Notes under the pieces: model-generated
The model's database searches: none
What the model was told of the DNA's origin: nothing
Seen by the model: only the letters and a program-made list of their open reading frames with translations
Assembly (NCBI RefSeq): GCF_037126465.1
Contig: NC_088204.1
Coordinates: 72,849,807 to 72,913,806, forward strand
Direction: 5' to 3'
DNA length: 64,000 bases
Source of the DNA: Ornithodoros turicata
Lineage: Eukaryota; Arthropoda; Arachnida; Ixodida; Argasidae
Part shown: positions 12 through 46,046 of the stretch, in pieces
How the letters are laid out: each line of letters starts with the position of its first letter
Position numbering within the stretch: position 1 is the first letter of the stretch
Translations under genes and position numbers: made by a program

Positions 12-149
12 CGTTGACTGATGACGATACTGGCATAAAGAAATACGTCAGATATTTGTGAAATAATCACATATGAATTACTGCAGAGAAGGTGCAAAGG
101 AAAGTGTTATAAGAGACTCACCTATCAGACATAGTAGAACGGGAAGCAT
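12..149 (-). CDS. G0: 5' part of a secreted defensin-like gene, cut by the window edge
   Basis: Two coding exons are visible. Exon 1 (122-149, 28 nt) reads MLPVLLCLI and ends in phase 1 at a GTGAGT donor. Exon 2 (12-29) is an 18-nt micro-exon between a CAG acceptor and a GTAAGTGG donor; it adds VSSSVN and stays in phase 1. The intron between them is 92 nt. Together they make a typical signal peptide, MLPVLLCLIVSSSVN, closely matching the leader of G1 (micro-exon VLSAVN). The last exon, which should hold the mature cysteine-rich domain, would lie left of position 1 and is not seen. The call as a cluster member rests on the exon plan and the leader similarity. A non-defensin secreted peptide using the same leader is possible. 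Confidence 0.6.
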
Positions 150-1742
150 CGTCTGTATATGATCTCTTCCGGATGGTACACGTCAAACTATGTTTTTTTG
201 CTACCGGGATCGCCTGTACATTTAGAAGGGCAGTTAAACAACAACAGATGGCTAAGTGCGCACGCTGTAGAGGAGGATAGACGGCGGTTAGGCCCAGTGC
301 GACGTCACGGACGCCCATTAAAAACGCGAGGGCTTTATAGCTTTTGTTCGTGCGTGATTCTCGAAGATACGTTCTTCGACTTGTTGAGCGTTTGAAGCGA
401 AAATATAGCCATTGTAGGTCTGGTTAGTAACAGTAGTGTCGTTCTTGAGGTAATAAAACATATAGGCGTCTTTTGAAAACGTAGGGCCGTGCAACGAGAG
501 AAAGCACGATATTATAGCTGTATATCGGTTCACACCTTCACACTTTCACACGCCGTACCATGCTTTGTCATCTCAGCATAGCTCAACTATTTGTCGGCTA
601 TATCTCACAATCATTCTAATAAAACTGAAGTGCGTCTCTTCTCTGAATCACTTAACGTGTTCCGACACTCCTATATTTGCTCGGTTTTAGACGTTCTGTT
701 GTGTTATGGTTCTTATTTGTGTTACGTACCACCCACAATTTCAATTACAAAGAATTAAAAATCCCCAGTGTTGAGTAGGACAACGAGGGAGAATAAAAAC
801 GACAAAGACCGACATTGAACTGCAAGTGGCAGTTCAGTGCCGGTCCTTGTCGATTTTATTGTCCGTCCTTGTCCTACCTAGCAAGAAGGAGTGGGGGACA
901 GGGGGTTAGTATGCGTCCGGGGCCGACTTCAGGGGGAACTGTGCCGACATTCGTCGTCCTCGGATATTACAGCGTATTGTTTCGTGTTACTGTCTTACCC
1001 ATGGAAGACATCATGAGTGGGATTATGTATACTTACGCTGCCTGAGCTCGGCCACAAGGGAGCTCCGTTCTCTAATGGCGTGCTACAGTGACGCTTCTAC
1101 GTATCGATGTGCATGTATATTGATATGCTCATTACAAATTGAGCAACACTACGAATAAACGAAAATTCATAGTGGCACTGAAAGTTGGACATATTACTGT
1201 AGGGTTCCGCGCTTCCGGCATTTCGGAAAAAAGGCGAGAAACACTAGCCGAATATTTTTCGCGAAATTCGGCATGTTCCGAAAATACCGGTACCTGCATG
1301 GTCGCATATTTGTTCCTTCGGGGAATCACATTCTTAGTTTTTTCTTCACCTCGTTTTCATATGAAATGTGTGGAATACCGCCCTCCTTCCCCTATAAGGC
1401 TTTGGTCAGTGGGTGAATTAAGAGGGTTCAAGTACACGGGGAACCCTTCCTCCACCTCAAGCTGCCCTCCTTCCATAGGACTTCTCCTTTGTGATTACAG
1501 CTGCCGATATTGTGGCTTCCATTTTTGGCACGAACGTTCTAAAATGCCGAAAATATCCGGATTTCTCAAAACATATCAATGCCGAAAAACACTCGCCAAT
1601 TCTTCCGAAGAATAAATGCCGAAAACGGACCATTAGCATCCTCAACGACTACAGAAAAAAAAAAAAAAGAAGAAGAACGTTCACAACGTTCAACGTGTTC
1701 GACGAAGGATAATACATTCACACCGCTTGAATTTGCTGTTCT
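150..1742. other. intergenic, decayed repeats, no gene recognised
   Basis: Short ORFs here are unsupported. The stretch 1190-1640 has many copies of a GCCGAAAA-like motif in both orientations, which suggests a worn transposon split by an insertion. The palindrome at 775-877 and a SINE tail at 880-960 are listed or described elsewhere. Confidence 0.5.
775..877. repeat. near-perfect palindrome of about 100 bp
   Basis: The arms starting GTAGGACAA (775) and ending GTCCTAC (877) pair almost completely around a short centre near 825-833. It abuts a plus-strand stretch (about 880-960) that matches the tail of the tRNA-derived SINEs elsewhere in the window (GGGTTAGTATGCGTCC, then GGCCGACTTCAGGGGGAAC). 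It is probably a hairpin-type transposon end. No coding sense is seen. Confidence 0.6.
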
Positions 1743-1745
1743 CCT

Positions 1746-1751
1746 TTTATT
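1746..1751 (-). promoter_or_regulatory. poly(A) signal of G1
   Basis: AATAAA on the minus strand, about 90 nt past the G1 stop codon. Confidence 0.6.
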
Positions 1752-1842
1752 GTGACAAAATTTACACGTTCCAGTCGCGACAAAGTTCCATTTACACGAC
1801 AAAGTTCCAGTCGGGCAGCGTAGATTTTCACTCGGATTTTCG

Positions 1843-4494
1843 CTAGGAACAAACGCACTTCTGCTTTGACATGTTGCACCAGCCGTGCGTGTGCCTGAAT
1901 CTTCTGCAGACCCAACTGCAGTATTCGTTTGGAAAAGGGGTGTTGCAGGGCCCGAGAACCACATGGTCTCCTGGAGGGAGCGGGAGGTCAGGGGACTTTC
2001 CCCACGGTCTCCTGATGATCGTTATTGGTTCTGGTGGCTCTGGATGGCCAGGGGATGTTCCTTCGGGTACTCTTGGTACCCCCGGTCCATATGAGTGCGG
2101 GTGGTCAGGGAGTGTTCCCACGGGCATCTTTGGTACCCTCGGCCCAGATGAGTACTGGTGGTCAGGGAATGTTCCCACGGGTCTCCCGGGTACTCCCGAC
2201 CAAGTTGGGATTGTATGATGTGGGTACTGTAAGCTGGGAGTCTTGGGGACTCTTCGTCCTTGGTCGTGCGGAACGTAAGGACCGGGTTCCTCGAGCGCCA
2301 GTGATGGATAATAATCGTACGGGTACGCTGCATGTACAGAAAGAAATATATGCAGTGGCGTCGAGTGCCGGTATTCATAGGTAATTACACTGTCGTAATT
2401 ACGTAACCCTGAGAAGAGTTCGAGATGTAGAGTTGCCAGTTTAACAGCTACTTGCTACTGCACCCCTCAAGTGGTCTGCCATTTTTATGGTCAGTTTTCG
2501 AAAATGAAACTGTACTTCCGGTGAACTTCGGACGCAATGAGCATGTCTGCTGAAGTTACTCGTATTGGGGCGGCACATTTAATTGTGAAGAGTTTAGCTT
2601 TGGCGCCACTGTACTTGGTATGAAGATAATTATTCATGTTCTCAACGATAACGATAAGATTATGTGAACTGTTTTTTGCACTAGAACCTGGGAATCAATA
2701 GCGCTACTGTGAAACTTTTGTAGGTTGTACGGTGCGCTGGTACGTTGAGGACATCTTTTGCACGACGTTTCGAATTGCGTGAATTGTGCTAAGGGGCAAG
2801 TTTGTAACAGAGGTTATGTTGATCAATGACCGATGGATGACGTCCGTTTTGCTGTCAGGAACTTGTTGGTCTTAACGCGTGGCAAAGTGAGCGGGAGCAA
2901 AAATATTAATTACTTGGATATTAAGCTGGGTAGCCCTAATTTCGGATCATTATCTTTCCCGGAAACATCTGTATCCCAATATAGCTTCACTGCGATGTAT
3001 TGTAGCTGGAGGAGCACTGCTAATACACCATAGCGATACCTCCTGTTGCGATTGCCCCTCGGGCTAATGACCATAGACCAAGTTACAAGAGCTCTGGACG
3101 TTTTTTTTTTTTCGTTTTCTTTTTTTAAGGAAGACACGATACACCTCCATATGGACAAGGGTGACGATACCCATGTAGAAGCGCGAGCTTTAGAATAATT
3201 TGTGAATAATAAGATAAGAACCGTGTTCGTGGACTCACGAGAGCCACGGTGATGGGGGTTACATTTCTGATTACATTGTAAGCGGGATATTCAAAAGCGT
3301 CAGTAAGAAGTGGCGTTAACGTTGCGACTTGCGTGCTCCGCCTGCGAGCCTCTGCAATACAGGGTGACTGTGTGTATCGTGGAACGCCAAGTTGCCATTG
3401 GAAGTGGCTTAGAGCTGACTCCGCTTAGTCACGTTGGATGATGCTGGATTAATAATAATTCGTGCACGTTGCGACACAACTATGATAATCAGCAACGACC
3501 CAGTGGTCGGTTTCTGGATCTACTTTTGCCCACCTGCAGAGTGCTCTTTAAACACGCGCTGAAATCACAATGCACTGCACACCGCGGAACCCGGTGTGTC
3601 AAACCATGTACCCTGTCACCAAATTGGTGGCGTCCATGGCGGGGTACGAACCCGCAACCTTGGGATGAGAAGGAGCACACGCTACCGCTGTGTCGCCAAG
3701 GCCGGTAATGCTGGATTTAGGTAACGCTGGTAAACGCTGTAAGAGCTCTGAACACTCTTTGGATCGTTGTAAATATAGGTGGCATCATGTACGATGGCTT
3801 AGACACGCCGTCTTCCGCGAGGGACGTTAAATACGGGGTGCCGTGTGATGAGCTTCCATTGCACGTTAAAAGAAACCTCAGGTGGGCAAAAGCAATCCAC
3901 AGACCGACCGCTGTGGCGTCGCTCATGATCTCAGTTGTCTTGCGACATAAACATCCGATTATTCTTATTATGTACGATGGTGACAAGATTCCCCGCCAGA
4001 GCGTCATCTTTGCACAATCCCCACTTTCTTTTCTTTCTTTTTTTTTTCTATTCCGTCGACACTAGTAGGTGATGCAGGTAAGTCGGCCACGGACGCATCA
4101 TCCAATCGTACAGTACCGTCTACGTCTTTCTCCTTCTCTTTTGCTGTTTTGGCGCGAAGAGATTCTACCATCTCACAACGTGCAGAAAAATTCTCGCGTC
4201 TCCACTACGTCCCCACCTTCCCGTCCCCACCTTCCCGTCCCCACCTTCCCGTCCCCACCTTCCCTCCGCCCCAGCACTCCTAAACAGCTGCAGAATTACG
4301 AGGGTTCAAAATATGACTGCGAATTATACTTGTGCATCTACTTACCGTTTACTGCTGATAGAACTAGAAGGAAGAAAGAAGCAACGTGTCCTGCGTGTTT
4401 ACGCTCGAATGGTTCTGCGGTATCTGTACAAGGTTCCAAGAGAAAGTGTCAGCAACTAACCTGTGACACATAGCAGAGCAAGGGATATCTTCAT
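1843..4494 (-). CDS. G1: secreted proline-rich/defensin chimera, 178 aa, three exons
   Basis: Exons: 4461-4494 (34 nt, MKISLALLCVT), 4346-4363 (18-nt micro-exon, VLSAVN), 1843-2327 (485 nt to a TAG stop). Donors are GTTAGT and GTAAGT, acceptors are TAG and CAG, both junctions are phase 1, and the sum is 179 codons. After the signal peptide the mature chain starts near AYPYDYYPSL. A Pro/Gly-rich region follows, with three degenerate 19-20-residue repeats built on VP..P.GT.PDH.YS.GP. The C-terminus is a six-cysteine CS-alpha-beta domain, spacing C-x8-C-x3-C-x9-C-x6-C-x1-C, the same pattern as arthropod defensins, with a basic loop (RRFRHTHGW). No furin site is seen before it. A defensin fold is very likely; antimicrobial activity is inferred from the family. 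Intron 2 is long (2.0 kb). Confidence 0.85.
3590..3705 (-). repeat. tRNA-derived SINE head in G1 intron 2
   Basis: Read on the minus strand, a box-A-like stretch (GGCGACACAGCGGTAGCG) is followed at normal tRNA spacing by a box B (GGTTGCGGGTTCGTACCCC). The rest is not tRNA, and the unit continues into non-tRNA sequence, so it is a SINE and not a tRNA gene. Confidence 0.55.
4209..4263. repeat. 14-bp tandem repeat, about four copies
   Basis: The unit CGTCCCCACCTTCC is repeated almost exactly. It lies in intron 2 of G1, roughly 80 nt downstream of the micro-exon. Confidence 0.8.
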
Positions 4495-6147
4495 GACGCT
4501 AGCTCGAGGGCGACTCCACGTCAGATTGCGCCGCGATGCATACGCGGAAACGGCTGCATTGTGAGAAAGATTGAGAAGGGGAAGCAGGTCACTGATCAGC
4601 ATAATGTTGATAAGGGCTCGGGAAGCTTTCAAAAGCTGTAAACTTTTCAGTACTGTTAGTAATTGTTGCGGTAGTAAGTAAGTAGTGACAGCAGTGTAAC
4701 TGAGGGTAGTCTGCGTATAGAAAGGGAGCGTATAGGTGGCGCCACCGGCTTGCGGTCACGTTGTAGGCGTTCATTAAAATTACAGACGAGCTCACTTTCA
4801 ACAGTTTTGCAATTGTGAAGATTTTGAATGCGAGAAAACCGAAGTTGACCCTGCCATAAATGTAGTAGCCTTCTGAAAGCGAAAATTCCCGGCACCTGAG
4901 CAGCGCCCACTAATAAGCACACGCGAATATGTTCGCGTCCGGTAGCAATGAGGCTTAAGTGGAGTGACGTCACGTTTGGTCACGTGACATGGGAACAGGG
5001 AGGGGGTAAGTGAGGCTCGAGGTGAGCATAGGGCCTTGTATGTGTCACGTTACCTGAGAATGCTGAGAGCTGGTAGGTTTCAGCCCTATACCACCGGCTG
5101 CGCTGTCTTCTATAGGCGGATGTCGCACAGGGCCCTATGCAGCCGGAAGCAAAGACATACTAACCGGTCCCCCGAGCTTCACTTTCCGCACCTTGCTGCT
5201 CACCCCCATCCAGTCTGGACAAGTCCTTTTTAGGACAAGTCCTGGAGCTTGATCTTCAATTTCGGATACTCCCCAGCCAACTCAACATCGTAAATTCAGC
5301 GTAGAAAACATGTTGCATGGTCAACCAAATGAACGCATAACCATTGAGAGCGAACCTTGATTCGATGTAGCAAATGTCAACGTTTCAAAACGCGTCATAT
5401 TCTCAACGACTAATCAACGCACATTCAACGTAATCGAAACGCGGCTCGTACGTTAATACAACGTGTACGAATGTTGAAAAAGCTCAAACACAACATATAA
5501 GGCACACGTTTTCAGTAGAAATCATCATTTTTCTTCGAGTTTTTTTTCTTTTTCTTCTCTCTCTCTTCCACCACAACACGCATTTTCTTCTGCTTCAGTG
5601 CTTTTTTGTTTGTGTCCCGGACTTCCCATAACGAACTTGCAGGAAAACGTGTGCAGAAACAACGTTGTTATTTTCATGTCTGCGGTTCCGTTAAATTCCA
5701 GCATAATTACCGATGCGGTCATAACGTGCGCCATTCCACTGCCGGCATGTATGAGTGTTGAATCTGCGTGGTATCCTGGTACTACAACTCCGATGTTGAA
5801 TTTTTCATGTACGATCTGGGTTTCACATACGCACTATAAGGATACTCAACGTGGATTTTTCATTCTATTAACTATCTGTGTTGACTGGGTCAGTCGACTA
5901 GAACTCAGTGGCGTCACTAGTTTGTGAGAGGGGTGCGATCCACACTGGGTGACGTGACGGGAGCGGGTGACGCGCCACACCAGTGCCGCCGCTTCATTTC
6001 TTTCTGTGCACCCCATGACACCAAAAACGTCACCTTTGGATGTGATACTTCCCAGCGTGCAGTATGATTTTATTACTTACCGCGTAGAGAGGCACGAACA
6101 GAGATCCATTATTGGAGGGCGGGGGCGGCCCAAAGAACTCCTGTACA

Positions 6148-6818: not shown

Positions 6819-6824
6819 TTTATT
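6819..6824 (-). promoter_or_regulatory. poly(A) signal of G2 overlapping its stop codon
   Basis: The minus strand reads TTAATAAATA. The TAA stop (6823-6825) and AATAAA share bases, so the 3' UTR may be very short. G3 has the same arrangement. Confidence 0.5.
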
Positions 6825-8286
6825 AATTTCTCAAACACTCGCACATGTGCGTACGCAAGTTGCAGTATCCGCGTAGTTGAAAGGCGCTTCTGCAAAATGC
6901 GTCGCAAGGACCGTGTGGATTCCCAGGAATAGCCGTGCAGCCCCACCAACCATGACCCCGGGTCGGGTCACCGAATGGCCCTCCGGGTACTCTGGGTACT
7001 CTGGGTTCACGTGGATACGGATATGGGCTTCTGGGTTCCCGTGGGTATGGAATGCCACGGTCATATCCCCCAGGCTGCGTCGGTGCTCTTGGTTCTTGGC
7101 CTGGGAACCGAGGGCCACCGACGGGTGGTGCTCTGGGTCGCTTGGGAGCTCTCGGTCCAGATGGGTACCGGAAGTCTTCGTATGATCCTTCGGGACTCTT
7201 TGGTACGTCCGGCTCACCTGGGCGCGGGTAGCCGCCATGCCAAGGTTTTCCGGGGTATCCAGCTACGAGTAGTCTGCAGGTAAGCTCATGGCAATTGTAT
7301 GACCCCACACGAGACTTTGAACTCGTGAGTCCGTGAATCCACAAGTGCAAGTGATGGATGTGTGTTGTACCTACACTCTAAAACAAAGCTTCACAGCATA
7401 GCACACGCCTTGACAACCATGGTCCCGAATGATATCGTTCGCTTCCTAGATAGGATGCAAACGGGCGTACGCCATTTTTATTTTTTTATTTTTTTGCAGT
7501 TTATGTACTGCATAATGCCAGAACAAAGCCTTACGCATCCCGTTTTCATCAAGTCAGGGGAAACAACGATATCACTTGGGATTATGTTTGGCTAGGAGCT
7601 AGCTATGTGGTGAAGTTCATTTTTTGGTTCACCTTGAATCCTTCAACTTTCTTCTTCCCCCCGTTTTTTTTTCTTTTTTCTTTTGCTATAGTCGTGACGA
7701 TGCCGACTTGTGTGCGGCAAACAACGGCAAGCAATTTTGGAATCACCTGCCCCGCCCCTTTGTATGCGCTATAGGTGGTTACATTTTCAACACTGTAATT
7801 GTTTCGCTATTATAAAAGTATTGACAACGAGCAGTTCATTCTTCATTATTCCCATCAGCTAAGGACTAGCTTGATTTCGTCTGATGGCGAAGGACACGTA
7901 GACTGCACACGTGGCACTAAGCCCTTTGAGTTCTGTCTCCTCCATGACAGTTTACTGATTCTTTCTGCAGTGTCAGCCGAGATTGACCGATGTCCATAGT
8001 ATCAAATCACCTGATCCACGTTAAATCAGCGCATATTCGTGAAGATGGCACAATCGTCAACAGCACCAGTGCAGTGACCCCACATGTAGTGACAAAATTG
8101 TAGCGATATAACTCACCGGTCACACTCGCAAGGACTGAAAATAGAAATAGAGACAGAGGAAATCCCATCATCATGTAATTTCATTCTGATCTCGTCATGA
8201 GAAAGAAGGTACGAACACACACTGCAAAGGATATTTTTTGAAGACCTACCGGTCATACAAATCACGATCGCTGCTTCCTTCAGCAT
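6823..8286 (-). CDS. G2: secreted proline-rich/defensin chimera, 164 aa, three exons
   Basis: Exons: 8250-8286 (37 nt, MLKEAAIVICMT), 8117-8134 (18-nt micro-exon, VLASVT), 6823-7262 (440 nt to TAA). Donors GTAGGT and GTGAGT, acceptors CAG and TAG, all phase 1, 165 codons in total. Introns are 115 and 854 nt. The mature protein begins near AGYPGKPWHGGY and runs through about 100 residues rich in Pro, Arg, Gly and Tyr with PR.P motifs (for example PRAPKRPRAPP and YPYPREPRVP), like proline-rich antimicrobial peptides. A six-cysteine domain follows: C-x10-C-x3-C-x9-C-x6-C-x1-C, ending in CLRN. A longer open frame reaches position 7350, but it runs through the splice acceptor into the intron, and I prefer the spliced start because of the leader and promoter. 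It is the sister gene of G3. Function is inferred: secreted immune effector. Confidence 0.87.
7374..7627. repeat. CACTA-type MITE in G2 intron 2
   Basis: The left end CACTCTAAAACAAAGCTTCAC and the right end GTGGTGAAGTTCATTTTTTGG are inverted versions of each other. Both arms contain the GCACGC/TAGGAGC and ATCCCGAATGA-type blocks seen in the 35.5- and 36.6-kb elements. An internally deleted version sits at about 12,825-12,990 in copy B. Confidence 0.6.
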
Positions 8287-8744: not shown

Positions 8745-8835
8745 TATTAGCGCCGCGAACCAACTGTGGCTATGCGTCCGGGGCCGACTTCAGGGGATAC
8801 TGTGCCGACATCCGTCTGGAAAGTCTACTTTCAAA
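8745..8835 (+). repeat. SINE tail remnant
   Basis: The block CCAACTGTGGCTATGCGTCC followed by GGCCGACTTCAGGGG matches the 3' part of the SINE at 22.92-23.2 kb. A matching remnant lies at 13,970-14,105 in duplication copy B. Confidence 0.6.
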
Positions 8836-12219: not shown

Positions 12220-12225
12220 TTTATT
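12220..12225 (-). promoter_or_regulatory. poly(A) signal of G3 overlapping its stop codon
   Basis: The minus strand reads TCTTAATAAATATC. The TAA stop at 12,224-12,226 shares bases with AATAAA, as in G2. Confidence 0.5.
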
Positions 12226-13504
12226 AAGATCTCCAGCACTCGCAATTACGCGAACGAAAGTTGCAGTATCCGCGCAGTTGATGGTCTCTTGTGCAAATTG
12301 CGTCGCAACCGGCGTGTGGATTCCCAGAACCAACCGTGCAGTCCAAACCATGGCGACGCCGGTACGGGTCACCGAGTGGCCCTTCGGGTACTCTGGGTTC
12401 ACGGGGGTACGGGTATGGGTTTCTGGGATCACGGGGGTACGGGTATGGGCTTCTGGGATCACGGGGGTACGGGTATGGGTTTCTGGGTTCCCGTGGGTAT
12501 GGAATGCCACGGTCATATCCCCCAGGTTGCGTCGGTGCTCTCGGTCCTTGGCCTGGGAACTGAGGGCTACCGACGGGTGGTGCTCTGGGTCGCTTGGGAG
12601 CTCTCGGTCCAGATGGGTACCGGAAGTCTTCGTACGATCCTTCGGGACTCTTTGGTACTCCTGGCTCACGTGGGTGCTCGTAGCCACCATGCCGTGGTTG
12701 CCCGCGGTATCCAGCTACGAATAGTCCGCAGGTTAACTCATGGCTATTGTATGACCCTTCACGAGCCTTTCAACTCGTAAGTGCGTGAACCCCCAAGTGA
12801 AAGTTATAGATATGTGTTCTACCTACGCTCCAATAACAGAGCTTCACAGCATATCATGCACCTAACCAACCATCGCCCCGAATGAGACCGTTCTCTTCCT
12901 TGATTTGATGAAAACGGGCTTGCGCCATTTTTATGGGCATTTATGAACTTCATAATGCCAGAACTTTCTGGCGCTATGAAGTTCATGCGCTATAGGTGGT
13001 TACATTTTGAACACAGTAATCGTTTCGCTATTATAAAAGTATTGACAACGAGCAGTTCATTCTTCATTATTCCCATCAGCTAAGGACTAGCTTGATTTCG
13101 TCTGATGGCGAAGGACACGTAGACTGCACACGTGGCACTAAGCCCTTTGAGTTCTGTCTCCTCCATGACAGTTTACTGATTCTTTCTGCAGTGTCAGCCG
13201 AGATTGACTGATGTCCATAGTATCAAATCACCTGATCCACGTTAAATCAGCGCGTATTCGTGACGGTGACACAATCGTCAACAGCACCAGTGCAGTGACC
13301 CCACATGTAGTGACAAAATTTTAGCGATAACTCACCGGCCACACTCGCAAGAACTGAAAATAGAAAGAGAGACAGAGGGAATCCCATCATCATGTAATTT
13401 CATTCTGATCTCGTCATGACAAAGAAGGTACAAACACACTGCAAAGGATATTTTTTTGAAGACGTACCGGTCATACAAATCACGATCGCTGCTTCCTTCA
13501 GCAT
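12224..13504 (-). CDS. G3: secreted proline-rich/defensin chimera, 181 aa, three exons
   Basis: Exons: 13,468-13,504 (37 nt, MLKEAAIVICMT), 13,336-13,353 (18-nt micro-exon, VLASVA), 12,224-12,714 (491 nt to TAA). Donors GTACGT and GTGAGT, acceptors CAG and TAG, phase 1 throughout, 182 codons. The true last-exon frame has no ATG, so simple ORF finding reports only shadows here. The mature region starts AGYRGQPRHGGYEHP and shares a 30-residue block with G2 (VPKSPEGSYEDFRYP onward). It then carries three copies of a ten-residue unit DPRNPYPYPR, where G2 has one. The C-terminal domain is C-x10-C-x3-C-x9-C-x6-C-x1-C, ending in CWRS. Its cysteine domain differs from G2 at nearly half of its positions despite near-identical leaders and introns. 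It is intact and probably expressed. Confidence 0.87.
12393..12490. repeat. 30-bp coding tandem repeat inside G3
   Basis: A 30-bp unit (plus strand starts CACGGGGGTACGGGTATGGG) occurs three times almost exactly. On the minus strand each copy encodes DPRNPYPYPR or the S variant. G2 keeps a single, less pure copy at the matching place (about 7000-7045). Confidence 0.85.
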
Positions 13505-13964: not shown

Positions 13965-14105
13965 TTTGCGCTGCGAGCCAACTGTGGCTATGAGGACGTA
14001 CAGACGTGGGCAGATAGACAGAAGGAAGGAGGGAGGGAAAAAGGGTTTAGTATGCGTCCTGGGCCGACTTCAGGGGGAACTGTGCCTACTTTCGTCTTGA
14101 AAGTC
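13965..14105 (+). repeat. SINE tail remnant
   Basis: GAGCCAACTGTGGCTATGAG, a GA-rich stretch, then GGGTTTAGTATGCGTCCTGG and GCCGACTTCAGGGGGAAC, as in the SINE at 22.92-23.2 kb. Confidence 0.6.
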
Positions 14106-16060: not shown

Positions 16061-16067
16061 TAACATT

Positions 16068-22914: not shown

Positions 22915-23205
22915 TGCATGTTAGCACCGCAAAGCAACTGTGGCTATAAGTGGCGTACAGACGTGGACAGTTGGAGAGGGGGCAGTGGGAAGGAGAGGGG
23001 GACAGGGGGTTAGTATGCGCCCTGGGCCGACTTCAGGGGGAACTGTACCCCCTTCATCTGGAAAGCTCTCTGATAACTAAGGGAAAAACCTCGTACAACA
23101 CAGCCGGCGGTAGGTTTCGAACCCACCACCACCCCCCAATCTTCAGCACGGCCTTGGCTACCACCAAGGAGCGGACGCGATAACCAACTCGGCCACGCCG
23201 CTGGT
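22915..23205 (-). repeat. complete tRNA-derived SINE
   Basis: On the minus strand from 23,205: box A GTGGCCGAGTTGGTTATCG, box B GGGTTCGAAACCTACC, then a body with CAGTTCCCCCTGAAGTCGG, and an end near ATAGCCACAGTTGCTTTGCG. It matches the shorter remnants at 0.9, 8.75, 13.97 and 59.5 kb. Confidence 0.75.
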
Positions 23206-23350: not shown

Positions 23351-23356
23351 TTTAAT
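23351..23356 (-). promoter_or_regulatory. possible poly(A) signal of G4 overlapping its stop
   Basis: ATTAAA, a common variant signal, overlaps the TAA stop on the minus strand. Confidence 0.3.
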
Positions 23357-25120
23357 ACACCTGGTCTATGGGATACTCGTCGTCTACATGACCCATATTC
23401 CATTTTTCGCAGTAGCATTTATAGTCGTGAGCGCAGATGCCCCGATTTCGAAACATTTCTTGGCACCGCGCATCACAGATGGGGTCCTGGAAGGGTTCTG
23501 CGCACGTGATCACATCTTTAAACGTGTACTCTTTCCTTAGGTCCTCCAACGTCCCAGGGTAAGGGGTCCCTCTAGGAGGGAACGTGTAGTCCTGCGGCGG
23601 CATCACGGTGATTGGGTCTTGTTCAAAGATAGGAGGAACGGTTGTGTTCCAGGGCATCGCCTTTCCTACGCCTGCAAGCAGAAGGGTAGCGACAGATATA
23701 GAACGGCAGTCCCAGGAGGATGTAGCAGTTTTTTGTTTCGAGGGAGGTCATAATACTGGTTATGTTGCAAGAGCTTCACGTATAATAGTGTAGACTTGGT
23801 GGGCAAGTTGGTGAAGGTTTCTGAAACACGAAAACGAGGCAGAGACGAGAGACAAGAGAGAAGGACACAAACCTGTTGTGTCCTGTATCCTGTTTGTATC
23901 TTGTCTCTCGTGTCTGCATCTCTTTCTTGTTTTGTGGAGCTTTATGTATCATTGCCGACAGGTGTGTAAAGCTAAAATAACGAAAGCACACCTGTAGGGG
24001 GCAGGGGCAAATTAAAGCAGGACTCGACATGTTGCAGAATATATGGGGGTTTGGTGTAGTGGAGACTGGATATATCAGTGGATGAAGATCTACGCAGTAG
24101 TGAGGCAAAGGGTTCTGAAAGTACAGTACGTTGTGCCAGAGGGTCTTTATCAGAAGTACTCGCGCTCATAGAAGCCCTTCCTGGAAGATGAGTATAATGG
24201 CGAGATGAAGTTGGCATATTGTGTTAAGAGGGAGGTCGCGGTGGATGAGCTTTCGTACGAGTGGCACAATTGGTTTCGTGAAGAATCAACCTCTCGTTCT
24301 TTTTGTATTTATTATTTGCTCATTTTTATTTTCTGTATTCTACTAGCCGCGCCGCCTTTCGAACGTAAGGCGAAACTCTCTCACTTGCGCGAGTTAATAC
24401 AGCTGTGCTTCACTTCGCTCACGCCGCTGCAGGTGGCAGAGCTGTCGACTTTGAAAAAGAGTAACAAAACAACAAGAAAACAGAAGAGTGCGTATTTTTT
24501 CCTTTTACCTCTTTTTGCTCATAGACAACGTCTTCCATTGAGCAAAATTGGGCAACGAAGAAAAAAAAGAAACTGAGCCCAGTCATTGAGAATATGGAGG
24601 ACCAGCTTACGCTATGGCGAATCCCTGATCTAATCTGACCCTGTAGGTTACTTCATTAAAAGATTGACTGGAACTATTACTAGTACAATTGTTCTGTTGA
24701 TGTTAGAAGTTTTTGGTATTAATCACTAGTGTATTGCAACTGTCCACAATGTTTATGTTCTTAAACTCGCTGTGACTGCTTGTAGAAGACCAGGTTCCTC
24801 GTCAGGGATCTTAATCCCTTTTGTACCTGGCCCTCATTTCCTTTGGAAATAAAGAAGAAGTGAACTGAAAAAAATCACCATAAAATTAAGTATGTAAGCA
24901 GACAATATAAAAGTTTGCCTGTCGCTGGACTGTTGCGGCATTGAGTATTGGAGTAGCCATGGGTAGCCCATGTACCGTTTAAGTAAAACATTAGCGCTGT
25001 TTCGCAGTGAAGTCGACTAACGAAGAATGATTCCCCATGCTGCATGCTGTCATGTCGCTCATCTGACATACCCGATGACATACCCGATGTAATAATTGGT
25101 AATAACGTTGTCAATGTCAT
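23352..25120 (-). CDS. G4: secreted defensin-like protein with acidic ends, 118 aa
   Basis: The last exon (23,352-23,671, stop TAA) begins after a CAG acceptor in phase 1 and reads GVGKAMPWNTTVPPIFEQ, a Pro-rich linker, then C-x8-C-x3-C-x9-C-x5-C-x1-C (ITCAEPFQDPICDAR onward) and an acidic tail with DDEYPID. The proposed first exon (25,084-25,120) is 37 nt, reads MTLTTLLPIITS and ends at GTATGT in phase 1; the total is 119 codons. A second identical donor lies 12 nt further on and would add four residues. I found no micro-exon in the 1.4-kb intron, so the exon pairing is a best guess, while the cysteine exon itself is firm. It is acidic, unlike cationic defensins. Confidence 0.65.
24640..24880 (+). 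repeat. probable 3' end of a retroelement
   Basis: A tail with TTTGTACCTGGCCCTCATTT, a GGAAATAAAG signal and then a GAA/TGAA/A-rich end at about 24,850-24,875. It lies inside the proposed G4 intron. Confidence 0.35.
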
Positions 25121-25762
25121 TTTCTACAGCTATGAATGTAGAGGTGGTAATATTATTTCCATCTAGTAACATCACATAAAAACAGTTGAAAAAAATGAAA
25201 ATGATAAAAAAACAAAAAGTTGAAAAAGAAAAGATGGTTCACCGCATTTTCCTGCTTCACGAGGTTTGGCTGCGCACATAGTCATTAAAGCAAACCAACG
25301 CATGCAAGGGCTGAAGCAGCCATGTGACAGAAAAATAATATATCGGCACAACACTATGTCACTTGCTATCTCTCTTCTTACGAAACTTTGAAGTACTTGC
25401 CCAACAGCCACGAAGTAGCCAGCAGGATTCTCAACATTGTTACTCTTCGCTGTCCAACGACGCGTCTGCGACTAACAGCTGGACTATACTACTACTACTC
25501 ACAGCCCTTTCGCGTCAATTGCCCGAAAACGTAAAGCTGACTTCTGTTTGCTCTCTTTCCCTCAGAGCCGTCCGAAGGTGCTGGCGTAATTACCATTATC
25601 AACAAAGAAAATACATTGATTGTGAGAAGAAGGCGATACCAAACACAAGACCGCGTCTGTCCCGATGTGCAACAATAAGAAAGCGCTTACAGGGCGATTT
25701 ATTGAAACCACACTACGGAATCTGTTACGGAAGTCATCCCCATATCATCGTCATCATGTATT

Positions 25763-26551: not shown

Positions 26552-27723
26552 TTATACACAGTCGTCCCACTGAGATGGACACTGGTTCGTGGTCCCACGT
26601 GATCGCCCGCAGGCTTCATTACAGCTGCAACTCTGCGTGATTGGTCTTGGGTTGTCGTAAGGACATGTACCAGAATATGCCCGAGACAGTGTATAGTGTC
26701 GCTGCCCCCTTGGCTCCTCGAGAGGAGATTCCTGCACGTTTGCGTAGTCCATATATTCTGGCTGAGGTCCGTCCGGGTTTGACTGCGTTTCAGTGTCTTC
26801 GAGACCGTACTGCGGAAACTGTACTTCAGAGGGCGGGGGTTCTGAGGTAGTCGCTTGCGTCACTGGTGCAGCCGGCTTGTACGCCCACGGTTTCTTCGGT
26901 TCATTCTGTGGATCCTGCGGGTCACCGAAGGCTGCGCCGAGAAAAAAAATATGATTTTCATGAAGATGAGGTAAGTAAGTGCAGCCTCTTGCTTTCCCAA
27001 TGTGCCTTGGAACATGAAATTAGTTCGCTGAGACCTGGAATAAGATTGTCATTTTCGCGGACACTGTACTAGGATGTCCCACATGGTGCAATGAATGCAA
27101 AGCTTTTAGCATCGTGTCCGATGTCTTTGAATCAAAGAAATTTGTTTTTGAGTGAGCCTAAGCTTGAATAATTTTATCATGTTCCGCAGATTTTTATCGA
27201 TTCGTGAGTATGCTCGAGTAATGTGTATAGTGCAATAACTACAACATAAGAGGGCGAAAAACTTTGCTAAGGGGCGATAAACGTTTGCCCCAAAAAGACA
27301 CTCACGTCGATGTTGATGTTGAGGAAAAAAAATAATAGTGTAGATACAGTTTTTTTTATTTATATACATTGTCTTGTATGTTGCGATCCTGACCTTCAGC
27401 ATTGCTTAAATATGCAATGCGGCCATTGCTGCTCTTGTAGCGAAGAGGGCAATCCAAACGGCGTTATGTTGAACATTGACGTGCCTTTGAGCAGTAAGTG
27501 ATTAGGGTAATACAACGCGGCGCGCACCCTAGACACACACGTGCATAGTATACCTTGTACGATTTGTATGATATGTAATTCATGAATTATTTTGTAAGAA
27601 GTGGAAACAGCTGTGTAACACATTCTGTCACTGTAACGAAAGTAATGACACCTGACGTGTGCCCGGTTTTTCAAAATACATACCGTTGATAGTAAGCAGA
27701 AGAAAAATCACTTTCTGCAGCAT
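26552..27723 (-). CDS. G5: divergent secreted cysteine-rich protein, 139 aa, two exons
   Basis: Exon 1 (27,684-27,723, 40 nt) reads MLQKVIFLLLTIN and stops in phase 1 at GTATGT. Exon 2 (26,552-26,931) follows a CAG acceptor with a long pyrimidine tract and continues AFGDPQDPQNEPKKPWAYKP. The total is 140 codons. A long polar, acidic, Pro-rich middle leads to the C-terminus C-x10-C-x1-C-x3-C-x9-C-x6-C-V-stop. The CxxxC, x9 and x6 spacings are those of the other members, but the final C-x-C is cut short: the stop replaces the last cysteine. An extra cysteine lies two residues before CxxxC, keeping the total at six. No micro-exon was found. The pairing of disulfides is unknown. Confidence 0.7.
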
Positions 27724-31085: not shown

Positions 31086-32643
31086 TCAGTACGAGGAACA
31101 CACGCAGACTCCATGACTGCAACCGCCTCCACCAGCGTCCACAGCTTTCCTGCAGTATCTGTCGCAGAACACATGTCCCGCTGCTGACGTGGTGCACTCC
31201 TGTTCTTCGACGAAACGCCTACGTTCACCTGCATGACCGCAGAAAACATCGTTGGAAGATCTTATGGTTTGGGATGCGCACTAACAGCTCTTCAAGCAGA
31301 AAGAGAGAAAGTGAGGCTTCCGGGTGGTTGTGTTTCGTTAATGACACGCGTCGCCAGAGCCGTTCCAATAGGAGGGGCGAGAATGGGCAGCCTCCCCGGG
31401 CGTTTTCCACAGAGGGGGCGCCGGGCGGGAGGCTCCGCTAGAGCTATACTATATATCGGGTGAGCGGGAAAAGATGTGAGAAACAAAAGAACTGTGCGAT
31501 CGGAGCTGCATATGAGCTTTTCCTTCACTTTCTATACAGTCGTCCTGGTGGGGGTGATGTGTGTGTGTGTGTGCGTGTGTGTGGATGGGGGACTTGGCGT
31601 AATCATGCCCCTGGCGGAAGCTCGCCCCGGGACGGCTCTGGGCAGCCCTTAAGACGGCCCTTAAGAGTTCCTAACTCTTCGCACGACGGCACCACGTTTT
31701 TACGGATAAATATGAAACATGATTACTGGTATCGATGTGGACCTGCGCTCCAAGTTTTAAGCACAGTCCGTTCACACTACTGTCCCCACGTGGTGTTGTC
31801 TCTAGGTGTTCTTGACGGAGTATCATGACCGAGTTGCGCCGCGTCCACGGAGACAACTTTTCAATGGCGTATCACACCTCTTCACGCCAGGAAGTCGAAC
31901 TGGGCTTCCAACGTCACGTCGCGCCGGTTACAAGAAAACGTTCAGCAAAAATATTTTGCATGTTTCCTCTTGATGTAATGTGTAAAGAATCAAGTAAATG
32001 AAGCAGGGCAGCGATTAAAATTAAATGCTATTCCATTGCAGAATTTAAAAAAAAAATTAATGCTGATCATTGGGAGTCTCGTCGGCAGGGGTGATACTGT
32101 CCACCATTACTGCTGGAAGTGCTGTGAAATGGAACGATAAGTCTCCTTACAATTAGGACCAAAGTCCTACGGTGCCCAAAAACTTTAGATCTGCTTTTAG
32201 GGTGGAGCGTTTTACAGGCTGGGTTTGTCTATGGACGAAGGAATTTTGACATAGTTGAGAGGACGACAGTGGAACAGATCTGACTGAGGTACGCTGGAAG
32301 TGTGGTTTTGACAGGTTGGGAACACGGGCAATGGTGAAGTATGAGGTCTAGCTGTATTGTATACAAAACTTATTGTAACTGTCAAGAGAAATATGTGAAA
32401 TACATACGTGTCCACCCTGCCTCGACCAGTGCTAAACGAGAGAGAGAAAATGACAACTTAGGCTTGGCATACCCAACGCATACAAAGGCTTCCTGCGTAT
32501 GGAAGACGTGGAAACTTTTAGCAGCCGCATGTGCTTGACTCTTAAGCAACGAAAATAAGCGACAATCTCTACTCCATTTTAAGGTGAATAAGTAACCAAA
32601 ACTTACCACTCACGCAAAGCACAAGCACCAAGAGCTTGATCAT
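31086..32643 (-). CDS. G6: short secreted defensin-like peptide, 59 aa, two exons
   Basis: Exon 1 (32,607-32,643, 37 nt) reads MIKLLVLVLCVS and ends phase 1 at GTAAGT. The last exon (31,086-31,228, stop TGA) starts after a CAG acceptor and reads GERRRFVEEQE, then C-x9-C-x3-C-x10-C-x4-C-x1-C, ending CSSY. The total is 60 codons. The short n-loop (x4) and glycine-rich turn (AGGGG) resemble compact defensins. RRRF just after the leader could be a processing site. With only these exons the signal peptide is short (about 13 residues), so an unseen micro-exon in the 1.38-kb intron is possible. A rival terminal exon at 32,212-32,378 is described among the findings. Confidence 0.68.
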
Positions 32644-37177: not shown

Positions 37178-38260
37178 TCACTCAAGAGAGGCGCACATGC
37201 AGTATAATCCACTCTCCGGAGTATCCTCGGATTGGACGCAAGCGCCTCCACCGTACCCTTCGTCTTTGCAATGCTGTTGGCAATCCTCGTTGCTGTTTGG
37301 GTTGTCACAACTGGGTGCATCTGCATCTGGTAAGACATTTTAAAGATGGACACAAAAAATTTACGCTCGGTCAACTTGTCTGAAAACAAATCAAATCAAA
37401 TAATATACATAAATAAATAAATGAAAAGGAAAACCGTTTTCTCTTATCGTTTACAGTGGCTTATATAATCTCCAAGTCTCGTGCGGAGGAGATGATCGTG
37501 GTTTAGTAGTGGGCTAACCTTTCTTACGACATCAATTATTTTCCTGCAGTTTTCAATTTTGCACGCATCATTTATTTATCTATTCATTTATTCATTACAC
37601 GCTTGTCCCACGGTATGTTGGCTCACGTCTCCATATCCCCCTATTCCATCATCGTCATAGCATGCAATGGTGTTGCTTCACGTCTAGTAAACACGCATAG
37701 CAGGACTTATTTCGAACGGCAGTGTCCCGTCAGGTTTACACAGGAGACATGTTCACGAATGTTTCTTTCCTTTCGTTCGTTTTCAGAGACTGTATATGAG
37801 CCCCTCTTACATGTCAAGAGCAACATAAAGTTAGTACTTACCTGTCCCTACTATCAGAACTGAAAGAAACAGAAGGGTCACTTCAACGCCGCGTTCAACG
37901 CAAAGTGTATGGTCTCATCGCAAGTAAAATTCTGGGATAATCAATAAATTATACTTGCTCGATAAACTGCAACGTTAAGTCTACTAATTTCAGTATTAAT
38001 GCTACTGAGTTTAATACTACATTTTTATTACTAAAAATAGCACTTAGTCAACAACAGCGCTTAATATTAAGCATGGAACCCAGACTCCAGTCATATTTTC
38101 AGGAACGCGCCTAACGACGAACTACAAATCTGGCGTTTCCTGCTGTTGCTTATTACGAAAACTCCCCACTAGGGGAAATCACAACCCGCATGCCTAAAAT
38201 CTACGAAAGCTTACCTGAAGCACAAAGGAGAAGCACTAGCAGACACCTCATTTTGAGCAT
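37178..38260 (-). CDS. G7: short acidic secreted defensin-like peptide, 70 aa, three exons
   Basis: Exons: 38,215-38,260 (46 nt, MLKMRCLLVLLLCAS), 37,842-37,859 (18-nt micro-exon, VLIVGT), 37,178-37,326 (149 nt to TGA). Donors GTAAGC and GTAAGT, acceptors CAG and CAG, phase 1, 71 codons. Starting at the second ATG (38,251) would make exon 1 exactly 37 nt, as in G2-G4, G6 and G8; either start gives a good signal peptide. The mature chain DADAPS is followed by C-x8-C-x3-C-x9-C-x12-C-x1-C, ending CASLE. The x12 loop is long and acidic (VQSEDTPESGLY), and the whole mature peptide is negative, which argues against simple membrane-active killing. No open ATG frame shows this gene; only splicing does. 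Confidence 0.87.
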
Positions 38261-39364: not shown

Positions 39365-39417
<53 letters not shown>

Positions 39418-39420
39418 ATT
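39290..39420. repeat. (TA)n-rich microsatellite at the 5' edge of the Penelope-like element
   Basis: About 130 bp of almost pure A/T including 20 or more TA units. It directly joins the truncated coding region. A second (TA)n lies past the 3' end at 41,681-41,702. Confidence 0.85.
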
Positions 39421-39506
39421 TATCGCCAGCTGAACACCGTAGCCTTTCCGACCTTCAAAGACGTGATGATCTGGTTATAAAAAAAGCTGATAAAGGTGGT
39501 GCAATT

Positions 39507-41288
39507 GTGGTAATGAACAAAACTGATTATATTAACGAGGGCATTCGGCAGATATCATGCACATCATTTTACAAAGTCCTCGAAGCTGACCCTACGGAAC
39601 AGATCACTGCTAATGTTATCCGTAGCTTGAAAGATCTGAAAACCAGGAAAAAGATAGACACCACCCTGTACGAGTACTTACTCCCTAGAGATCCCGTGCC
39701 AGGCAGATTTTACATGCTCCCCAAGATCCATAAACCTGGGAACCCAGGGCGCCCGATAGTTTCTTGTAACGGTACAGCTACCGAAAATATTTCCAGCTTT
39801 GTAGATTATCTTCTTAAAGATATACCCCCAAAACTTCCATCCTACATTAAAGATACAAATCACTTCCTGGAAATATTAAGTCAGTGCCAACCACCTCCCT
39901 CAAGTTTGCTGGTCACGCTAGACGTTTCTTCCCTCTATACCAACATCCCCCACGAAGATGGCATTGCTGCAGCTCAAAGGGCGTTTTTAAAATATTCGGA
40001 CAACTCATACGATCCTTGTGTTCTATTCACATTCCTTAACCTTATTCTGAAAAATAACAACTTTGAATTTGATGGTAAACATTACTTGCAAGTCAGTGGC
40101 ACGGCTATGGGCACTAAGATGGCACCAAATTATGCAAACATCTTTATGGGTAATCTGGAGGAGGCATTTCTATTCCAATGCGAGAAAAAGCCGACGTTGT
40201 ACAAGCGTTTTCTGGACGACATCTTTATAGTTTGGCCATATTCGGAGGACGATCTGAATATATTCATTAGCAATTTTAACCAAGCACATCCGTCTATCAA
40301 ATTCACCCATTCTTACTCAGCTCTAACTGTTAACTTCCTAGATGTCCAGGTAAAGTTAACGGACGGGGTCCTAACTACGGACCTGTTCCGTAAACCTACG
40401 GACTCCCAGCAGTACCTAGCTTTCAAGAGTTGCCACCCGCGGCACACTAAACTTGCTATCCCCTACAGCCAGGCACTTCGTTATAGACGCATCTGTTCCA
40501 GCGACAGTGATCTGGATAGAAATTTGAACCAACTCAAGCAAACATTCATCAGTCGCGAATTCCCACCTAGTTTAGTTGAGGACGCAATAAGGAAGGCCCG
40601 CAGGGCAGATCGCAAAGCTCTGTTCCAAAACCGCAACCGCAAATCAGACAATGGTTCCGTCAACCTCGTTGTAACATTCAACAATAATGTTTCCAACATC
40701 AACAGTATACTTAATCGCCACCACGGTATTCTTTGTCAGTCAGAGCGCATGCGACAAATCTTCCCGGAACCGCCACGTGTGACCTACAGGCGCTCGCAAA
40801 ACCTCCACGATAATCTAGTCAGCTCCAAAGTGAACCGACCAACAAGTCCGACGGCAGGCTGCCACCCGTGCAATGGCCGCAGATGTCAAATATGCAAACT
40901 AATGCGAAGTGCCCACGTGCTTAACAGCACAAATTCTAATTTCTTCGTCAAAATTCATGGTGACTTTGACTGCAATTCATCCAACGTCATTTATGCCATT
41001 CAGTGCAACGCGTGTCAAGCACAATACGTAGGTCAAACCAAAACATCTTTTCGGATCAGATTCAACAACCACCGGTCGGACGTTAATAAAAAGCCAAATC
41101 TTCCTGTTTCTCGTCATTTCAACCAACCTGGTCATTCAATAAATGACGTTGCCCTTTTTATTCTTCAATCAAACTTTAGCTCCGATAGAGGCAGGGAACA
41201 ACGCGAGTCTTACCTCATTTACAAATTCCAATCAATCATTAACGAAGATCCCGGTGTACTTTCAACAGTAAGGAATCTGGTCGTCTAG
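39507..41288 (+). CDS. Penelope-like reverse transcriptase with GIY-YIG endonuclease, 593 aa, 5'-truncated
   Basis: The enzyme copies element RNA into DNA at a nicked target. The frame continues upstream without a stop through KKADKGGAIVVMNKTDYI to the TA repeat at 39,420, so the native start is missing and 39,507 (GTG) is only where the given frame begins. RT motifs: LVTLDVSSLYTNIPHEDG (about residue 135), the catalytic FLDDIFIVW (about 234) and FLDVQVKLTDG (about 275). A cysteine-rich linker (CHPCNGRRCQIC, about 452) leads to the GIY-YIG nuclease VIYAIQCNACQAQYVGQTKT (about 494) with conserved R and H residues after it. The stop is TAG at the end of RNLVV. It is unbroken, hence young. This is a transposon gene, not a host gene. 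Confidence 0.9.
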   Translation: MVMNKTDYINEGIRQISCTSFYKVLEADPTEQITANVIRSLKDLKTRKKIDTTLYEYLLPRDPVPGRFYMLPKIHKPGNPGRPIVSCNGTATENISSFVDYLLKDIPPKLPSYIKDTNHFLEILSQCQPPPSSLLVTLDVSSLYTNIPHEDGIAAAQRAFLKYSDNSYDPCVLFTFLNLILKNNNFEFDGKHYLQVSGTAMGTKMAPNYANIFMGNLEEAFLFQCEKKPTLYKRFLDDIFIVWPYSEDDLNIFISNFNQAHPSIKFTHSYSALTVNFLDVQVKLTDGVLTTDLFRKPTDSQQYLAFKSCHPRHTKLAIPYSQALRYRRICSSDSDLDRNLNQLKQTFISREFPPSLVEDAIRKARRADRKALFQNRNRKSDNGSVNLVVTFNNNVSNINSILNRHHGILCQSERMRQIFPEPPRVTYRRSQNLHDNLVSSKVNRPTSPTAGCHPCNGRRCQICKLMRSAHVLNSTNSNFFVKIHGDFDCNSSNVIYAIQCNACQAQYVGQTKTSFRIRFNNHRSDVNKKPNLPVSRHFNQPGHSINDVALFILQSNFSSDRGREQRESYLIYKFQSIINEDPGVLSTVRNLVV

Positions 41289-41570: not shown

Positions 41571-41729
41571 CATTCTTTTTTTCTTTTTTTTTAATCTATG
41601 TGTTAAATTGCCCTATAAATAAATTAGTTGTTGTTAACGTTCCTGTAATCTGTAGTCCAAGTCTTATTATTTCACTTTTATATATATATATATATATATA
41701 ATAATTCAATAAATAAATTCTAACTGGCG

Positions 41730-41990
41730 ACGTACTCGCCGGAGGGTTGTGGGACTTTCGGCAATTACCTTCTAGAAACTTTTGCCGCCATTTAGGAAGA
41801 CTTTGGACAATTTTTAATTGAGGGAAATTTATTTTCTTCAATTGAAATTTGAAAAGTGCCAATGAACGTCACTTCTTTTTTACAGAAATATGAAGTCCTC
41901 CACGGATAAACACAGACCCAACAAAAACTACGCACAGTATCGCAACAGAAATAGCCGAAAAAAAATCAGTGAGAATTACTCTTTAGCCCC
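41730..41990. repeat. single arm of the foldback family (as at 27.8 and 29.6 kb)
   Basis: GGAGGGTTGTGGGACTTTCG, then GAAACTTTTGCCGCCATTTA and GAAGTCCTCCACGGATAA match the left arms of the other copies. No right arm follows. Confidence 0.6.
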
Positions 41991-41999
41991 GCCTACATG

Positions 42000-44074: not shown

Positions 44075-46046
44075 TTAATCAACCTTGCTGACGCGGACAC
44101 ATGAGCAAGTTGGACTCGGATCAATCTCACTTGGGACACAGGTACCCCTAGTAAATCCCACGGCCGTGCAAACTTCGTGACAGTGCTTGTCGCCAAGAGT
44201 TCCTAAGTCACAACTGTACTTGGATCCGTCGAATGCTTCCGCTCCTGGTGTGACATGTTGAGATATAAGCAATGGAGGATTAGCACAGTAAAACACACCT
44301 CTCTCAGGTTGTTCTCAAAGAAGAAGTGACGCCCTCCTCGATAATTTATTCCTTTATTGGCTCGTTGCGTATTGCGTTGGGTGTATTGCACAACAAACAG
44401 CACGTGCTCTTGCACAAGAACGGCTCTGATAGCTGACCTGTAGCGAACGCGAGAGGGCTTCGATGTGCGCACCCTTTAGAGACCCCCGACGTTCTCAGAC
44501 AGCCCGAGCGGTGCTGACTTCGGCCCACGACGTGGAGAATATCACACGCAGCAAGCGAATGCTCGGTGAGAAATAAGGCCTCGCGGCTGCTCCCACCACT
44601 AGTGCTATATAGTGCTATTTATTACAACGACCTGATTGCGTCACGCCAGGACATCGGGTCGGGTCCTCAAGGTGGTGCCGCATCGCTTAGGGTTGTTTTC
44701 TCTAGGCATTTTCCTAAATTTATTTGCGCGAGTGATAAGATATAGTGCAGCGAAAATATTGTACATGCTGCCTACCACAAAAGGTCGGTTCCGAGCAGTG
44801 CTAGACGTGACTTCCTTGCTGGTGTAGGGAACCCCAAGCATTGTTTGTTCTTTTGTTCTTTTGATTTCCCTGTGGGCCACACCAGTTAGTACGCATGGCC
44901 GAGCAAAGCGCTGTGATCAAAATGGAGATCTAGGTCGACTTGCCTGCCCATCCCGTATCTGCCTGCAGCTGTCTACTTCAGTTGAGGCACAGGCATTCAC
45001 CTGCACGATTGTATTCTAAAACGATCCTCCACTCGACGCCTCCCTCCGCCTTGAGAGTCGTGAGCGGCGGAGGAGCCATTTAATGGAAGGGAACACCAGC
45101 ACCGCCGTGTAATACTCAACGAAAGCGCGGAAGGGGTTCCTTTGATCGGGCGTGGGCTTCAATCGGCTCTAGGTCGACGTATGAAGTGCCAGCGCCGGCG
45201 CCAGGTACCGGCGTCGGGGCAGCAGATCCAGTCAACGGTCATTTAAAAATCGCCAGTTAGTGTACTGCACTGTTTCAACCTCGCGTAGCCAACTGTAGCC
45301 AACCGGTTCGCGTAGTGATAGAGCTGTCTTTGCTGGCAATCCTCATCATTTTTAGACAACTCCAAAGGACGGTGTACGTAGGTGATGGTACATCGTTATA
45401 TCGTTTGACATGCCCTTACCAGGTTTTACATTATGTTGGGACTACATTATCTAAGCGAAACTTATGTATTCCACTATATTGACATCACCACCTCAGCTGA
45501 CACTCAGGCTTATGCATGCTATCCCCCGACGCCCTAATTTTTCGCAATCGTTATTGATTCTCTCAGAAACACCCAAATTGAATAATTCTCTTCACGGCGT
45601 GCAATGTTGAGTCATGGCTGCAATGTGGCTACAATTTTATGACGTATTCGGATCAAGCATAGTACTTCACAGTCCCAGATCATTAAAAAAAAACGGTTTT
45701 GGGTATAATGGGCGTAAACTAAGGGCACGCAACGCCGACAGACATCAGCGATTATCAGGAGGACACTTTGACATTGCCTAGAATGTGCGCGTTATATCCG
45801 AAGCTTAGCGCCTACCGGGCAATAACATCAACTAGAAACTCACCTGTCGCTGCTACCAAAGCTGAAAAACAAAATGAAAACCTAATATACCTATATTAGA
45901 AGAACGCTGTACCTAACGCCTTGTTTTCATAGCAACTCAGGAATCGTTAATCATAATTAATTCAGTAATCTAAAAAATGTGTTGAAGCGTGAAAAACGTG
46001 CCTACTTACCTACGACGGAAACCAAAAGCATCATATTCCTTCTCAT
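44075..46046 (-). CDS. G8: secreted defensin-like peptide, 74 aa, three exons
   Basis: Exons: 46,010-46,046 (37 nt, MRRNMMLLVSVV), 45,844-45,861 (18-nt micro-exon, ALVAAT), 44,075-44,244 (170 nt to TAA). Donors GTAAGT and GTGAGT, acceptors CAG and CAG, phase 1, 75 codons. A longer open frame up to 44,296 crosses the acceptor and is not the real N-terminus. The mature chain GAEAFDGSKYS precedes C-x9-C-x3-C-x9-C-x10-C-x1-C and a tail CVRVSKVD. The x10 loop (VPSEIDPSPT) is longer than in classic defensins and resembles G7. Introns are 148 and 1599 nt. It is the last cluster member seen; to its right the window is transposon-rich. Confidence 0.87.

Follow-up and report, generated by a model that had tools for sequence, protein, structure and literature searches.

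The window analysed here is a stretch of 64,000 bases from the genome of Ornithodoros turicata, a species placed in the Argasidae (soft ticks), at C4:72,849,807-72,913,806. Together with its left flank it carries a tandem array of split minus-strand genes, each with a candidate signal-peptide exon, and comparison with known families makes it probable that they encode secreted immune effectors of the tick cysteine-stabilised alpha-beta (CS-alpha-beta) defensin family. The wider locus was scanned over the window and 100 kb on either side (264 kb, negative positions lying left of the window), and genome searches covered 1,071,346,672 bases in 379 contigs.

Gene models and extent of the array

Models were built by reading the minus strand, combined with scans for hydrophobic first exons with good donors and for short phase-1 second exons. 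All nine minus-strand loci that an earlier, sequence-only reading had reported in the window were recovered, eight of them complete and one cut by the left edge. They are named G1 to G9, and the models left of the window H2 to H9; lengths below are in nucleotides (nt) and amino acids (aa).

G1, 5′ part, 12..149, minus strand: signal exon 122-149 and 18-nt exon 12-29; last exon at -1258..-987, outside the window; 105 aa in total
G2, 1843..4494, minus strand: exons 4461-4494, 4346-4363 and 1843-2327; 178 aa; proline-rich arm and six-cysteine domain
G3, 6823..8286, minus strand: exons 8250-8286, 8117-8134 and 6823-7262; 164 aa; proline-rich arm and six-cysteine domain
G4, 12224..13504, minus strand: exons 13468-13504, 13336-13353 and 12224-12714; 181 aa
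G5, 23352..25437, minus strand: exons 25401-25437 and 23352-23671; 118 aa; six-cysteine domain in the last exon
G6, 26552..27723, minus strand: exons 27684-27723 and 26552-26931; 139 aa; modified cysteine pattern, no microexon found
G7, 31086..32643, minus strand: exons 32607-32643, 32408-32431 (24 nt) and 31086-31228; 67 aa, compact
G8, 37178..38260, minus strand: exons 38215-38260, 37842-37859 and 37178-37326; 70 aa, compact, acidic domain
G9, 44075..46046, minus strand: exons 46010-46046, 45844-45861 and 44075-44244; 74 aa, compact

The locus had been expected to continue to the left, and it does. Nine further last exons lie there on the minus strand, from -1,252 to -58,880; the first completes G1 and the others add eight genes, so that the array reaches -58.9 kb. 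The cluster of nine genes in some 46 kb that had been described is thus real in its loci and too small in its extent, the array comprising 17 models over about 105 kb of window and left flank. The strict six-cysteine pattern matched five exons on the minus strand of the window and none on the plus strand. A loosened version gave 17 matches in the 264 kb, all on the minus strand, of which 16 belong to the array and one is an outlier 98 kb right of the window; 30 dinucleotide shuffles yielded 0.17 matches on average and never more than one. These 17 same-strand matches do not amount to 17 independent events, because tandem copies inherit their orientation.

Searching the whole genome with the last exon of H8 returned eight places at E ≤ 1; the best seven (E ≤ 0.3) all belong to this locus, and the eighth, on C1 (E = 0.83), contains a stop. 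Since 10 of the 17 models in the array escaped this search, it is informative only for close relatives of H8, and distant members may exist elsewhere in the genome. Two possible extra members lie nearby. The first is a plus-strand frame 129 kb left of the window (L031 922-1290, profile E = 0.014), threonine- and proline-rich with a similar cysteine pattern at its end, on the strand opposite to the array; its first exons would fall outside the DNA examined. The second, 98 kb beyond the right edge of the window (L028 8249-8581, minus strand), is a variant with eight cysteines and has a microexon-like site with a GC donor.

In all 17 models the ATG is followed by a hydrophobic first exon, read as a signal peptide from hydropathy rather than by a dedicated predictor, and the last-exon frame stays open up to a stop after the domain. 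A TATA box lies 61 bases before the ATG in both G3 and G4, and 58 bases before it in G8. Three coding exons separated by two phase-1 introns, the first of them inside the signal peptide, are found in 13 of the 17 models. The second exon is a microexon of 18 nt in 12 models and of 24 nt in one, and was not found in four (H9, H2, G5 and G6); within the window this means 18 nt in six loci, 24 nt in G7 and none found in G5 and G6. A tight DNA pattern for the microexon gave no match, and a weight matrix was used in its place. The six 18-nt exons of the window have strong acceptor and donor sites and score 36-44 bits, compared with at most 16.8 bits in 20 simple shuffles and 16.5 bits elsewhere in the window; as the matrix was built from these same six exons, their own scores are no independent test. 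In a leave-one-out analysis from which close paralogues were also removed, 9 of the 12 18-nt exons scored higher than all non-member positions on either strand of the 264 kb (263,961 positions per strand), and the remaining three were each beaten by one position.

Some details of the sequence-only reading required correction. Canonical splice sites had been claimed for every model, which fails for G5: its first exon is less secure, with a GC donor (GCAAGT) and no microexon found, and both G5 and G6 stand as two-exon models. The modified cysteine exon that had been assigned to G5 exists, at the sixth locus by position, G6 (26558-26665). Finally, three genes had been named as having no usable ATG for the mature domain; in fact G3, G4, G7, G8 and G9, five of the eight genes complete in the window, lack an in-frame ATG before the first domain cysteine, and this goes some way to account for their being overlooked in frame finding.

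Public protein records, searched with the complete window models G2-G9, offered a check on splicing. The G4 model (181 aa) is 100% identical over 181 residues to a public O. turicata protein named 'protein lifeguard 1-like', an exact match that bears out the tick origin assumed in the sequence-only reading. Isoform X2 of LOC135393467 (212 aa) consists of 34 extra residues with the whole 178-aa G2 model at its end, and its first 14 residues match window positions 5357-5398; the isoform naming of this record suggests transcript support. The splice models, built blind, therefore agree with public proteins in both cases that can be checked. No public protein was returned for G3, G5, G6, G7, G8 or G9 by this search, which needs shared exact five-residue words; the two O. 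turicata proteins were the only ones returned, and no homologue from outside this species was found in the protein database. The prediction that automatic annotation could easily lose such genes thus holds for six of the eight complete window models and not for the other two. Of the two genes that do have a record, one, G4, is misnamed. The sequence-only reading mentioned neither these existing records under other names, nor the 18-nt exon that most of the genes share, nor their proline-rich arm.

The six-cysteine domain and a proposed tick defensin gene plan

The C...CxxxC...C...CxC spacing is present in 16 of the 17 models, G6 being modified. Alignment of these 16 domains leaves only the six cysteines and the glycine of the GxC gamma-core invariant (16 of 16 for the glycine), with a spacing of C8-13 C3 C9-10 C4-12 C1 C. 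When the 16-domain profile was compared with solved structures, the best matches were 2nz3, 2e3g and 2ny8 (2.9e-7 to 1.6e-6), which we take to be an Anopheles defensin and engineered forms of it; lucifensin, insect defensin A and sapecin come next among the six best. All six show little identity to the array outside the cysteines, and none of them is known to have a proline-rich arm. One cysteine-preserving scramble of the profile reached 0.0024 at best, compared with 2.9e-7 for the true profile, so cysteine spacing accounts for part of the structure match and not for all of it. Against 7,400 open frames from the DNA fetched around the loci, the three best matches outside the 16 domains were canonical defensin exons (best 1.3e-4), in a set whose canonical defensin loci had been chosen for their Defensin_2 match.

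Matches to Pfam families stayed below cut-off and were weak, mostly to Defensin (PF24552), Gamma-thionin and Toxin_3, and membership is therefore argued from the profile, a positive control and gene structure. The control was OtdA, one of the four published O. turicata defensins, OtdA-OtdD (PMC7232577): its 72-residue sequence, as given in Table 2 there, was rebuilt from its locus by the same reading. In the OtdA gene, a 57-nt exon 2 that carries the furin propeptide lies between exon 1 and the mature exon, and both introns are in phase 1. At the OtdC locus (C7:51.76 Mb), which shows 91% identity to the last exon as published, exon 2 measures 42 nt and the introns are again in phase 1/1. This intron comparison covers the OtdA and OtdC loci.

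OtdA and OtdC thus share with the array the species, six cysteines and two phase-1 introns. They differ in location, OtdA lying on C1, OtdC on C7 and the array on C4, and in the length of exon 2, which is 57 nt in OtdA, 42 nt in OtdC and 18 nt in the array. Unlike the array, OtdA-OtdD have no proline-rich arm. According to PMC7232577, OtdB-OtdD are without a furin motif, as is most of the array, so the loss of this motif is not peculiar to the array; the same paper mentions a fifth O. turicata candidate that was dropped, its cDNA not aligning to known defensins. The most economical reading is that a single plan, that of a tick defensin gene, underlies all these genes and that exon 2 has shrunk in the array to the end of the signal peptide. 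Invariant cysteines, the GxC glycine, the profile match and the phase-1 introns together support, from sequence, the assignment of the array to the CS-alpha-beta defensin type, as had been proposed.

Large expansions of defensin genes are known from another tick. PMC9208123 and PMC4269947, citing Wang and Zhu (2011), give 25 scapularisins and 21 scasins for Ixodes scapularis, an expansion that the array resembles. Scapularisins 3 and 6 are described in PMC4269947 as precursors of 70-74 aa with furin motifs, and it is in this respect that the array departs from furin-processed tick defensins (OtdA and the scapularisins), the motif being found in one of its 17 models, G7.

Proline-rich arm, charge and divergence within the array

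In 14 of the 17 models, the domain is preceded by an arm of 39-124 residues, 12-28% of them proline; G1 has the lowest share, and the stretch taken for G6 was chosen arbitrarily. The three compact models G7, G8 and G9 have a short spacer instead. A full furin motif, R-X-[KR]-R, precedes the domain in G7 (RERR) and in none of the others; five models (H9, H6, G3, G4 and G6) have a minimal RXXR only. The arm of G4 contains a 30-base tandem repeat of 3.6 copies (window 12392-12499), and REPR/RDPR sites recur at ten-residue spacing in the arms of G3 and G4, where they may allow the release of short proline-rich peptides. The net charge of the 16 six-cysteine domains ranges from -8 to +7, with seven negative, one neutral and eight positive.

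Crustaceans have a comparable layout. In shrimps, as PMC11678341 describes, penaeidins and stylicins combine an N-terminal proline-rich part and a C-terminal cysteine-rich part in one secreted peptide, and penaeidins have diversified by duplication. The cysteines of penaeidin-1 are arranged as CxC...CC...CC in that source, in contrast to the CxxxC...GxC...CxC of the array, and the resemblance is one of layout, most likely by convergence. No report of an arm-plus-domain layout in ticks was found in the open-licence literature. As far as these searches tell, this layout, the 18-nt exon and the size of the array appear to be new.

Comparison of G3 and G4 revealed a mosaic of divergence. The two copies of intron 1 are 4.4% different and the opening 300 bases of intron 2 are 2.0% different, compared with 9.8% in the 300 bases before the ATG and 18.6% in the last 200 bases of intron 2 (start versus end of intron 2, p = 1.8e-10). 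The near-identical tracts surround the signal exons (window 7817-8286 and 13036-13504), and the pattern is best explained by gene conversion around these exons. The ratio of nonsynonymous to synonymous divergence (dN/dS) of the signal peptide stays below 1 in each of the eight gene pairs analysed. For the cysteine domain, it is 1.70 in G3/G4 and 1.51 in H7/H8, the two closest pairs, and 1.82, 1.09, 0.92, 0.89, 0.68 and 0.59 in the other six. Fast divergence, as proposed for this locus, is borne out in the sense of rapid change. Positive selection is not demonstrated by the values of 1.5-1.7 in the closest pairs and is not claimed, because nonsynonymous and synonymous change pooled over G3/G4 and H7/H8 gave p = 0.27 and nearby non-coding DNA is about equally diverged, nonsynonymous change in G3/G4 being no higher than neighbouring non-coding change (p = 0.34 and 0.88).

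Mobile elements and repeats are interspersed with or lie beside the array. Between G8 and G9, a 638-codon plus-strand frame (window 39372-41288) matches reverse transcriptase and GIY-YIG domains and is presumably a Penelope-like element, given this pairing; another reverse transcriptase fragment lies on the minus strand in the gap between G4 and G5 (window 21255-21905). A repeat of about 890 bases is present in two copies, 90% identical (window 52142-53021 and 62521-63410); these copies also show reverse matches, both to one another and each to itself, and perhaps represent a mobile element. A dispersed repeat of roughly 45-75 bases occurs at five places (882-955, 8771-8816, 14025-14096, 22989-23049 and 59488-59560). 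Scans of the window for tRNAs and Rfam families gave no match, and ten other open frames of the window had no Pfam match at 0.01.

Proposed function and alternatives

The reading that we consider probable is that of a tandem array of secreted immune effectors. In the gene models the signal peptide is encoded by exon 1 and, in 13 of the 17, by the tiny exon 2 as well, and the last exon supplies the spacer or arm followed by the six-cysteine domain, which is modified in one gene. As a full furin motif is present in one model only, the chain left after removal of the signal peptide is expected to stay whole in most members, with arm and domain joined. The disulphide-locked domain with its GxC loop would bind a microbial surface target, and the extended arm could add binding or reach, as in the two-domain penaeidins of shrimps. 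Tandem duplication, partial gene conversion near the signal exons and rapid divergence of the last exon could together generate many binding surfaces, some strongly acidic and others basic; the existence of acidic members speaks against one membrane-lysing mode for all.

Several observations weigh against a defensin array of this kind. The array profile barely recognises OtdA (0.15), OtdB (0.45) and OtdD (0.91), and OtdC is not listed up to an E-value of 5. None of the 14 models or last-exon frames compared with Pfam (all except H4, H7 and G6) reached the cut-off, and a genome search with Defensin_2 gave 22 places, none of them in this locus. Part of the structure match is due to cysteine spacing alone, as the scramble indicates. 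The array does not group by sequence with OtdA-OtdD: in a tree of 22 domains, these four and two canonical domains stand apart at 90/98 and the array is not resolved. As 13 of the 19 inner branches are open and long branches meet, the tree was not used for history beyond this separate group. The microexon is not recognisable in H9, H2, G5 and G6, which were modelled with one intron, the RXXR sites of H9, H6, G3, G4 and G6 leave cleavage of the arm possible, and 7 of the 16 six-cysteine domains are net negative. Concerning the canonical genes themselves, 15 of the 22 Defensin_2 places fall within about 6.6 Mb of C1 (157.1-163.7 Mb), on both strands, and six C1 places that were examined have nearly the same mature exon.

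A more specific history, which we put forward tentatively, is that soft ticks evolved a two-domain effector from a tick defensin gene. Exon 2 would have shrunk to 18 nt, a proline-rich stretch would have been recruited into the mature exon, and a charge-diverse array would then have arisen, penaeidin-like by convergence, with an arm that possibly acts alone.

It is unlikely, although several points favour it, that these genes encode CS-alpha-beta peptides of a salivary or venom type that act on channels, proteases or clotting in the vertebrate host rather than on microbes. The CS-alpha-beta fold family also includes scorpion toxins, for two smaller array profiles the best, though weak, matches are scorpion toxin chains (0.0075 and 0.0091), and published OtdC lies just above the cut-off of a Pfam model for scorpion toxins. 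According to PMC8678048, a viral protease is inhibited by OPTX-1, a defensin-like peptide from a soft tick whose effect on clotting was also assayed, and the seven negative domains would also suit a host target. The 16-sequence profile, however, ranks defensins first and toxins lower. Less probable still is a reproductive, egg or developmental role for secreted cysteine-rich proteins of the same fold, which the fast change, the tandem arrangement and the charge diversity would fit equally, but whose case is weakened by a gene structure like that of tick defensins. A decaying array made up mostly of pseudogenes is very improbable: H9 and H2 without a clear microexon, the shifted acceptor of H9, the GC donor needed by G5, the modified cysteines of G6 and the nonsynonymous change near local non-coding divergence in the G3/G4 domain point that way, but all 17 last-exon frames are open, each with a candidate signal exon, dN/dS of the signal peptide is uniformly below 1, and two of the genes are publicly annotated, one as a numbered isoform with three member sequences.

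On the reading as immune effectors, the locus adds 17 candidates to the four published O. turicata defensin genes, and the 18-nt exon is a simple handle for seeking such genes in other tick genomes. Soft ticks carry relapsing-fever spirochaetes for years, as PMC7232577 recounts, and it is in this setting that such candidate effectors are of interest.

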